Source: Akkermansiaceae bacterium
Lineage (GTDB): Bacteria; Verrucomicrobiota; Verrucomicrobiia; Verrucomicrobiales; Akkermansiaceae
Direction: 5' to 3'
Length of the DNA stretch: 44,353 bases
NCBI GenBank assembly: GCA_013001695.1
Contig: JABDMC010000392.1
Span: 1-44,353 of the forward strand
Shown here: positions 21,658 to 23,895 of the stretch, piece after piece
How positions within the stretch are numbered: position 1 is the stretch's first letter
Layout: each line of letters begins with the position of its first letter
Made by a program: the position numbers and the translations under genes
Notes under the pieces: generated by a model
The model's input: the letters and a program-made list of their open reading frames with translations, nothing else
Database searches by the model: none
What the model was told of the DNA's origin: nothing

Positions 21658-22121
21658 GGTGTTGTTCCGGTTTGTTCATTCTTCCAAAGGGCGAACGTTC
21701 TGCGCATCCCGGTGCGAACGCGCGGCCCATCCCTCGAATTCCACTCCGCCCGCCGCTTCCGGTGCAATTGCATGACTAACCACGCCGCGCGTTTCATAAA
21801 AGTTTATTCTTGTCTGCGCGCCGCGCCGGAGGCCGGCAACGCACTGGGTCTCAGGAAGAAACCGGGCCAGCCGAGCGGGCGGGGAGCAAGCGGGGGTTTA
21901 CCCTGATATCACGACTCTTCCCTGCACGCCGTCGATGGCCTGCGCCGCGACATCCCGTTCCGGCGGGAACGGCGGCTTGCCCCGCGGCCCCCGAATTTGA
22001 ACACGCAACGCGGCGCCAGGCCTTGCAATTGGCGGCGAGTCATTGAATCTCCTCCGTGACACCGGAGACCCGTTCCCTGGTCCTCCGACGACATGTCCTC
22101 CCGCATCCCCAATCGCCGCCA
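21658..22121. other. Divergent intergenic region
   Basis: 464 bases between the serine hydrolase and the OmpH-like gene. It includes an AT-richer patch around 21780-21815, where promoters for either side could lie, and a 7-pair hairpin CCGTTCC/GGAACGG (21955-21972). No supportable gene. Confidence 0.4.
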
Positions 22122-22679
22122 ATGAAAAATTCGATCCTCCGTCCCGTTCATTTCCTCAGCCTCCTCGCCGCCCTCGGCATGCAAGCGCCCGCTCCGGCCG
22201 CCGGGGCGGAGGAAAAGCCCATCAAGATTGCCGTGGTCGATCTCGACCGGGTCGTCGCGCAGTCCGCCCAGGGGAAGGCGCTCCAGGATCGCCTCGCCAA
22301 TTTCCAGAAGACGGTTCAGGCCGAGATCGAGGAGCAGGAGGCGAGCATTGAACGCCTCCGCGTGAAGTTCGAGGCCGGAGCGAGGACCGCGGACGCCGCC
22401 GAACTCGATGACCTTCAGCACGCATACGGGCAAGCCCAGAGCGACTTGGAGCAGTACCAGACGAGGATGCAGGGCGAAGGCCAGAAGATGCAGACCCGGG
22501 GGCTGCAGGGGATCGAGGCGGCGCTGGGCCCGGTCTTTGAGAAGCTCCGCAAGGACGGGGGCTATGACCTGATTCTCAACAACACCCCCGGGGTGGTGAT
22601 CATGGTCGGCGAGCGGGTCGACATCACCCCGCTCGTCATCGCGCGGACCAAGGCGGCCGCCCGGGACGGCGGCCGGTAA
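22122..22679 (+). CDS. OmpH/Skp-family periplasmic chaperone-like protein
   Basis: 185 residues. Signal peptide (ILRPVHFLSLLAALGMQAPAPAAGA), then the family opening IKIAVVDLDRVVAQSAQGKALQDRL, a long coiled-coil (about residues 60-130, rich in E/Q/R/K), and the closing strand GGYDLILNNTPGVVIMVGERVDIT, typical of Skp/OmpH. Such trimers hold unfolded outer-membrane proteins in the periplasm. The start at 22122 is the one adjacent to the signal peptide; the open frame upstream adds unlikely residues. It is not next to bamA/lpxD here, unlike the usual skp context, so it may be a paralogue. The PpnP gene follows after 46 bases. Confidence 0.88.
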   Translation: MKNSILRPVHFLSLLAALGMQAPAPAAGAEEKPIKIAVVDLDRVVAQSAQGKALQDRLANFQKTVQAEIEEQEASIERLRVKFEAGARTADAAELDDLQHAYGQAQSDLEQYQTRMQGEGQKMQTRGLQGIEAALGPVFEKLRKDGGYDLILNNTPGVVIMVGERVDITPLVIARTKAAARDGGR

Positions 22680-22725: not shown

Positions 22726-23040
22726 ATGATTTTCGAGGACGTCACGGCCACCGCGTTGGCCAACATTTACTTCGACGGCAAGGTCGTCTCGCATTCGCTC
22801 ACCGGCGCCGATGGCCGGAAGATCACCCTCGGCCTGGTCTATCCCGGGAAGTATCACTTCGACACCGCCGCCGCGGAGCGCATGGACATCACCGCCGGTC
22901 GCTGCGAGGTGACTCTCGATGACAGCGAGAAGAAGGGCACCTACGAGGCGGGAACCTACTTCGACGCTCCGGCCCGTTCCGGGTTCACCATCGAGGTGCG
23001 GGAGGGCATCTGCCAGTATGTCTGCACCTTCCTTCCCTGA
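22726..23040 (+). CDS. ppnP: Pyrimidine/purine nucleoside phosphorylase (PpnP, DUF1255)
   Basis: 104 residues, a single small cupin domain, the family's normal length. The sequence NIYFDGKVVSHSLTGADGRK ... LGLVYPGKYHFDT ... ERMDITAGRCEVTL ... FDAPARSGFTIEV follows PpnP (YaiE) throughout. The family splits nucleosides with phosphate to a free base and ribose-1-phosphate. The gene lies between the OmpH-like gene and the predicted selenoprotein, 24 bases ahead of the latter, and may be co-transcribed with it. Confidence 0.93.
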   Translation: MIFEDVTATALANIYFDGKVVSHSLTGADGRKITLGLVYPGKYHFDTAAAERMDITAGRCEVTLDDSEKKGTYEAGTYFDAPARSGFTIEVREGICQYVCTFLP

Positions 23041-23064: not shown

Positions 23065-23421
23065 ATGGCAAAGGTGACCATCTACCACAACCCGCACTGA
23101 GGGTCCTCCGAGAACGCCCTGGCGGTCGCCGGGGACCTGGGAATCGAGCCCGAGGTCATCCTCTACATCAAGACACCGCCGGATCGCGCCGCCCTGGAAA
23201 GGATTGTGGCGGGTCTCGAGGACCCGGTCGAGGACCTCGTCCGCAAGGATGCGAAGTTCAAGAAGCTCGAGCTCGATCCCGCCGATTTCGTGGGCAATCC
23301 CGAAGCGGTGATCGATATCCTCCTGAAGCACAAGCAACTCCTCCAGCGCCCGGTGATCGTGCGGGGCGGGAAAGCGATCATCGGCCGGCCCAAGGCGCGC
23401 ATCGCCGCCTTCCTCGGTTGA
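23065..23421 (+). CDS. ArsC/YfgD-family reductase, predicted selenoprotein (in-frame TGA = Sec12)
   Basis: 118 residues if the TGA at 23098-23100 is read through. The start MAKVTIYHNPH, then TGA, then GSSENAL, matches the ArsC active-site loop YHNPxCxxSR with the stop codon exactly at the catalytic cysteine. Downstream, all three family arginines are in place: Arg60 (LVRKD), Arg95 (QRPVIV) and Arg108 (IGRP), equivalent to Arg60, 94 and 107 of E. coli ArsC. Length (about 119) and the ending RPVIVRGGKAIIGRP are closest to the YfgD-type branch. A SECIS-like hairpin follows the TGA (separate entry). The reading frame is intact on both sides, unlike a decaying gene. Function: thiol/selenol oxidoreductase, perhaps arsenate reduction with glutaredoxin, but no ars genes are adjacent. 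An ordinary gene caller would report only a fragment from 23206. Sec machinery is not in this window. Confidence 0.82.
23117..23134 (+). promoter_or_regulatory. Bacterial SECIS-like hairpin
   Basis: Starting 16 bases after the TGA: CCCTGGC (23117-23123) pairs with GCCGGGG (23128-23134), seven pairs including one U-G, closing a four-base loop GGTC. Known bacterial SECIS elements have a stem of at least four pairs, a short loop with G in its first two positions, and a loop lying about 16-37 bases after UGA; here the loop begins 23 bases after it. Confidence 0.7.
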
Positions 23422-23532: not shown

Positions 23533-23895
23533 ATGGAAACGTTCCGAATCATCCTTCAAATCATTGTGGCCCTCGGGCTCTTGAACGTGTGGATCCTCCG
23601 CGCCGGCAAGGCGACGTCCTTTCGGGGACGGGGGGCCGCGAACATGCGCGAGGAATTCAAGGCCTATGGCCTGCCCCCGTCGTTCATGCTGCTCGTCGGC
23701 GCTCTCAAGATCGGGGTCGCCGTGGCGTTCCTGGCGGGAATCTGGTTCCCGGCGTTGGTCCGGCCCGCCGCGGTGGTTCTCATCGTCCTGATGCTCGGCG
23801 CCATCGGCATGCACGTGAAGGTCAGGGACCCGCTCCGGCGCGCGCTGCCGTCGCTGGCGATGCTCGTCCTGGCGACCGCCATCGCGCTCCTTTGA
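23533..23895 (+). CDS. DoxX-like family small membrane protein
   Basis: 120 residues with four hydrophobic segments (about 5-23, 48-70, 73-92, 100-119), GLLNVWILRAGKATSFRG and a charged loop MREEFKAYGLPPSF between the first two. This matches the DoxX-like family of small four-helix inner-membrane proteins, whose role is poorly defined (some link to thiosulfate or quinone redox, others to oxidative stress). It lies 111 bases downstream of the predicted selenoprotein on the same strand. Convergent with the next gene. Confidence 0.82.
   Translation: METFRIILQIIVALGLLNVWILRAGKATSFRGRGAANMREEFKAYGLPPSFMLLVGALKIGVAVAFLAGIWFPALVRPAAVVLIVLMLGAIGMHVKVRDPLRRALPSLAMLVLATAIALL

Follow-up and report, generated by a model that had tools for sequence, protein, structure and literature searches.

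A gene of an Akkermansiaceae bacterium very probably encodes a functional selenoprotein of the ArsC fold, in which selenocysteine (Sec) takes the place of the catalytic cysteine. A preliminary description, made from the DNA sequence alone, had read the gene in this way, and our comparative analysis supports that reading: the TGA codon at the catalytic position is conserved, a hairpin just 3′ of it covaries and the genome encodes the Sec machinery, from which we infer that Sec is inserted. The family to which the protein belongs has been known since 2005; what is new here are its host lineages, the accompanying machinery, the conservation of the codon and covariation of the hairpin, the grouping of the Sec forms in a single clade and the lack of a second cysteine.

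The predicted Sec codon and its conservation

The window (the whole stretch of DNA that was analysed, 44,353 nucleotides) contains the gene, which we call Sec-ArsC, at positions 23065 to 23421 of the forward strand. The gene starts with ATG, encodes 118 amino acids and ends with a TGA stop codon at 23419-23421. The frame contains a single internal TGA, at codon 12 (23098-23100), and is otherwise open; a GTG at 23206 lies in frame with the coding sequence. The peptide around the internal codon is YHNPH-U-GSSENAL, in which the Sec motif, UGSS, is of the UxxS type. As the preliminary description had claimed, this lone TGA occupies the position of the catalytic cysteine of ArsC proteins, and the predicted Sec12, which would be the nucleophile, aligns with Cys12 of the glutaredoxin-type R773 ArsC. 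The best relatives with a solved structure are E. coli R773 ArsC and 3rdw of Y. pestis, and position 12 is the catalytic cysteine in both. The three active-site arginines are also retained downstream: Arg60 (23242-23244), predicted to be an oxyanion-binding and catalytic residue, aligns with R60 of R773 ArsC, and Arg95 (23347-23349) and Arg108 (23386-23388) align with R94 and R107, respectively.

Homologous loci were gathered by searching two collections with the protein; for the genome contigs, residue 12 was left out of the peptide patterns, and the best 80 of 209 loci were kept. Codon 12 is TGA in all 101 loci that span it (drawn in part from these best 80 of 209), which belong to Verrucomicrobiales, Acidimicrobiia and one Pirellulaceae metagenome-assembled genome (MAG), and in none of the 101 is it replaced by a Cys codon. 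More distant Cys forms may exist beyond the genome-contig loci that we retained, since only the best 80 of 209 were kept. The 101 loci, which may include the same genome twice across collections, correspond to 86 distinct coding sequences after de-duplication. In the 86 encoded proteins, His8, Sec12, Ser14, Ser15, Arg60, Lys61, Arg95, Pro96, Arg108 and Pro109 are invariant, and Sec12 is the sole Cys or Sec residue, there being no cysteine in any of them. Position 16, which is Arg16 in the CGTSR loop of R773 ArsC, varies among the Sec proteins (K, R, D, Q, T and others).

In principle, the TGA could have arisen through an error in sequencing, or by mutation of a Cys gene that is decaying, and nothing speaks for this beyond the general possibility that attends a single draft genome. 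We consider both excluded, to within a negligible residual probability, because TGA is present in all 101 covering loci, over many assemblies. Furthermore, substitutions at the first, second and third codon positions number 184, 77 and 595 upstream of the TGA, and 1701, 1154 and 5326 downstream of it, so the third position predominates on both sides; the part of the gene after the TGA is therefore under protein-level selection, and this continued purifying selection speaks against decay. The gene thus combines an in-frame UGA with a conserved reading frame, and places the UGA at the Cys position of its homologues, as is expected of a selenoprotein gene.

The SECIS hairpin and the Sec machinery

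A hairpin predicted to be a bacterial SECIS element is found at 23117-23134, with a seven-pair stem (23117-23123 and 23128-23134) and an apical GGTC loop (23124-23127) that we propose as the contact for SelB. Its stem begins 16 bases, and its loop 23 bases, past the TGA, exactly as the preliminary description had given them, and the element thus has the properties of a SECIS: a hairpin shortly 3′ of the UGA, with a G in its apical loop. The combination of a TGA and a GGTC hairpin of at least seven pairs occurs once in the window, counting both strands, compared with 0.15 per window expected from mononucleotide shuffles. Rfam matched no element, either in the window or at four homologous loci.

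In single-sequence folding, the stability of the hairpin is ordinary (z = -0.48), which gave no support against a chance origin, and it is comparison that ruled chance out. Across 83 distinct sequences, 98.1% of the cells of the stem are paired, versus 28-68% when the partner strand is slid, and 22 cells are changed on both sides of a pair, versus 4.1 in shuffles; compensatory changes are seen at three pairs. The stem thus covaries, which is what the preliminary description had proposed to look for. RNAalifold, when unaided, recovered the five outer pairs only, with a wider loop. The GGTC loop is invariant in all 83 sequences. The codons that lie at the hairpin are frozen as well: Ala18 is GCC in 84 of 86 sequences, Ala20 is GCG in 83 of 83 and Val21 is GTC in 86 of 86. 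This synonymous freezing is confined to these three codons and their neighbours, and the same amino acids take mixed codons elsewhere in the gene. In one Verrucomicrobiales locus (L028, genome G077) the stem differs, reading CTCGC GGTC GCGGA, with a compensatory change from G-C to C-G.

The preliminary description had reasoned that the organism would need SelA, SelB, SelD and tRNA-Sec, and all four are present in the host genome, which is 97% complete. The tRNA-Sec scored 69.8 bits and was also called by ARAGORN (SeC, anticodon tca), and profile matches were obtained for SelB (285.7 bits), SelA (482 bits) and SelD (378 bits). The host SelD is itself Sec-containing, an in-frame TGA encoding the U of its SCAGUASK motif (L018, G000:C106:8706-9632, reverse strand). 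Among 98 related genomes, Sec-ArsC was found in 22, one of which has a C-terminal fragment only and another an N-terminal match only. SelA is encoded in all 22 of these genomes, versus 48 of the 98 overall, and the Sec-ArsC gene is in none of the 50 SelA-negative genomes. The corresponding hypergeometric p-value, about 6e-9, overstates the independence of the cases because the genomes are related. We based this test on SelA because a tRNA-Sec survey of the 98 genomes, run with stricter filters, reported no tRNA-Sec in many SelA-positive genomes.

These observations bear on two other ways of decoding the UGA. If the organism used UGA as an ordinary sense codon, under an alternative genetic code in which the SECIS is uninvolved, the frame would be open once the TGA is read through, as it is. 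However, TGA terminates both the Sec-ArsC gene and the PpnP gene upstream of it (at 23038-23040), the tRNA with a UCA anticodon is tRNA-Sec and the hairpin is conserved, all of which make an alternative code extremely improbable. Alternatively, read-through of the UGA could insert mostly a residue other than Sec, for example Cys when selenium is scarce, or the codon could serve as a selenium-dependent switch. Insertion of Cys at UGA when selenium is limiting has precedent in other systems, but the machinery present here is of the Sec type (SelA, SelB and SelD), and a Cys codon replaces the TGA in 0 of the 101 loci, which draw in part on the best 80 of 209 genome-contig loci. We therefore regard this as very unlikely. 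The expected decoding is instead that SelB, carrying Sec-tRNA(Sec), would read the UGA at codon 12, guided by the GGUC-loop SECIS just 3′ of it.

Family, fold and relatives

The preliminary description had assigned the protein to the ‘ArsC/YfgD family’, which holds at the level of Pfam and of the nearest Cys-containing clade, but the score falls short of the cut-off of the arsC equivalog. With codon 12 read as Cys in the profile searches, the protein matches Pfam ArsC (PF03960) with an E-value of 7.1e-15 and 55.5 bits, versus a cut-off of 24, and TIGR00014 with 98 bits, which is below the cut-off of 106.05. No other PF03960 protein is encoded in the host genome. An AF2 model (pLDDT 88.8) has the ArsC fold, and its top matches in the PDB are the ArsC structures 3rdw, 3f0i and 1i9d/1jzw, at a TM-score of about 0.78. 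The protein shares with these R773 and YfgD-type enzymes the nucleophile position 12, His8, Ser15 and the equivalents of Arg60, Arg94 and Arg107, i.e. the catalytic residues of glutaredoxin-type ArsC, but it differs from them in having Sec for Cys, in not conserving the loop residue Arg16, in an identity of about 34% in structural alignments and in a host genome that yielded no evidence of glutathione synthesis.

A maximum-likelihood tree places 45 Sec sequences, from Verrucomicrobiales and Acidimicrobiia, in one group (support 93/97). This group adjoins the ArsC proteins R773 and 3rdw, together with a Cys-containing ArsC from Verrucomicrobiota, and lies far from Spx-like proteins; the deep branching is uncertain because the rows are short and the branches long. 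Spx, a regulator that targets RNA polymerase, and ArsC-related regulators (TIGR01617) share the PF03960 fold and a weak similarity with Sec-ArsC, but the Spx-like and ArsC-related proteins of Verrucomicrobiota fall in a separate clade. The Sec-ArsC of L028 sits among those of Acidimicrobiia in the tree, and this placement, together with its altered SECIS stem, suggests lateral transfer between phyla. The lone occurrence in a Pirellulaceae MAG (L050) could reflect an error of binning. A scan of viral contigs detected no relative.

Selenoproteins resembling ArsC have indeed been reported from marine metagenomes, as the preliminary description stated. Zhang, Fomenko and Gladyshev (2005) reported 14 predicted Sec-containing arsenate reductases of the UXXS type from the Sargasso Sea, with a drawing of the SECIS for AACY01238341 (PMC1088965), and Zhang and Gladyshev (2008) listed 77 ‘ArsC 1, pfam03960, UxxS’ genes in the GOS data (PMC2398784). 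The UxxS family is included in a 2022 review (PMC9312934), and a 2026 review lists it under TIGR00014 UxxS and describes the functions of such selenoproteins as largely uncharacterized (PMC13188914). In the open-access library that was searched, no paper joins selenoprotein terms with Acidimicrobiia. Judged by the published description, Sec-ArsC agrees with ArsC 1 in being a COG1393/PF03960 protein with U at the Cys12 position, a UxxS motif (UGSS) and a SECIS just 3′ of the codon, and differs in that the published set came from unbinned marine reads. The UxxC arsenate reductase-like proteins (ArsC 2, cd03032; NF041106) are likewise ArsC-like selenoproteins from the same surveys, but they have a UxxC motif and a second Cys, whereas Sec-ArsC has UxxS and no other Cys in 86 of 86 proteins.

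Proposed chemistry, substrate and significance

In R773 ArsC, the position-12 nucleophile attacks arsenate, and an external thiol resolves the adduct. By analogy, the 118-residue product would be a thioredoxin-fold, ArsC-type enzyme in which His8 and the UGSS-loop backbone activate the Sec12 selenolate for attack on an oxyanion that is held by Arg60, Arg95 and Arg108 and is most likely arsenate. Because the protein is without a second cysteine, an external thiol would be needed to resolve the selenium adduct, whether from a protein like glutaredoxin or from some other thiol of low molecular weight. A candidate partner is a glutaredoxin-like protein (L160:1501-1674, reverse strand) with a single motif Cys, in CGWS, which is the sole PF00462 match in the genome (46 bits); its matched stretch is below all NCBIfam glutaredoxin cut-offs, and it weakly resembles the YruB and Uxx-star families. 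Glutathione as the reductant is unsupported because the only glutathione-synthase-like ATP-grasp match in the host genome, an apparent glutathione synthetase (GSH-S_ATP), is actually RimK, and no glutathione synthase was identified there. Arsenite would leave the cell via an Acr3 pump, which is encoded elsewhere in the genome (373.5 bits).

The genes around Sec-ArsC are an OmpH-like gene (22056-22679) and PpnP (22726-23040) upstream, and a DoxX-like gene (23533-23895) downstream. PpnP is a pyrimidine/purine nucleoside phosphorylase gene, and its TGA stop codon lies 24 bases before the Sec-ArsC start. No ars operon or ars genes flank Sec-ArsC, and clustering of neighbourhoods over the homologous loci revealed no conserved partner. 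In one Acidimicrobiia/Microthrix group (L058, L062, L089, L100, L104, L106, L117 and L118) the gene lies between genes that we named, by eye from their sequences, as dephospho-CoA kinase-like and inositol-phosphatase/CysQ-like; with gaps of about 5-60 bases, this arrangement is possibly an operon.

Given this lack of an ars operon and of a conserved neighbourhood, the assignment of arsenate as a substrate draws on family resemblance, and we consider it probable, with modest confidence, that arsenate is the main one. A true selenoprotein that kept the ArsC fold could also act mainly on something else, as a Sec-dependent thiol or oxyanion reductase for protein-SSG, peroxides or another oxyanion. 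The unconserved neighbourhood without adjacent ars genes, the score under the arsC equivalog cut-off, the unconserved loop residue Arg16 and the largely uncharacterized functions of such proteins (PMC13188914) all fit a different substrate. On the other hand, the three arginines, His8 and Ser15 are all invariant, the Sec group is sister to the R773/3rdw clade rather than to the Spx-like clade, and the presence of Acr3 in a genome whose only PF03960 protein is Sec-ArsC fits an arsenate reductase. A substrate other than arsenate is thus a serious possibility that stops short of probable. It is also conceivable, though less likely than not, that Sec-ArsC represents an obligately Sec-dependent ArsC lineage of single origin, with Sec as its sole Cys or Sec residue, no Cys revertant found (in loci drawn in part from the best 80 of 209 genome-contig loci), lateral transfer between Verrucomicrobiales and Acidimicrobiia, and either a reductant other than glutathione or a substrate other than arsenate.

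With these results, a selenoprotein family first recognized in anonymous reads of ocean DNA has named bacterial lineages as its hosts, together with the full Sec machinery in the genome studied here. Annotation pipelines that take TGA only as a stop codon would miss or shorten its gene. Because Sec is the sole Cys or Sec residue of the protein and no Cys revertant was seen, the family lends itself to a clean test of what makes certain enzymes retain selenium, and also of whether selenium is coupled to the chemistry of arsenic, or of another oxyanion, in these bacteria.
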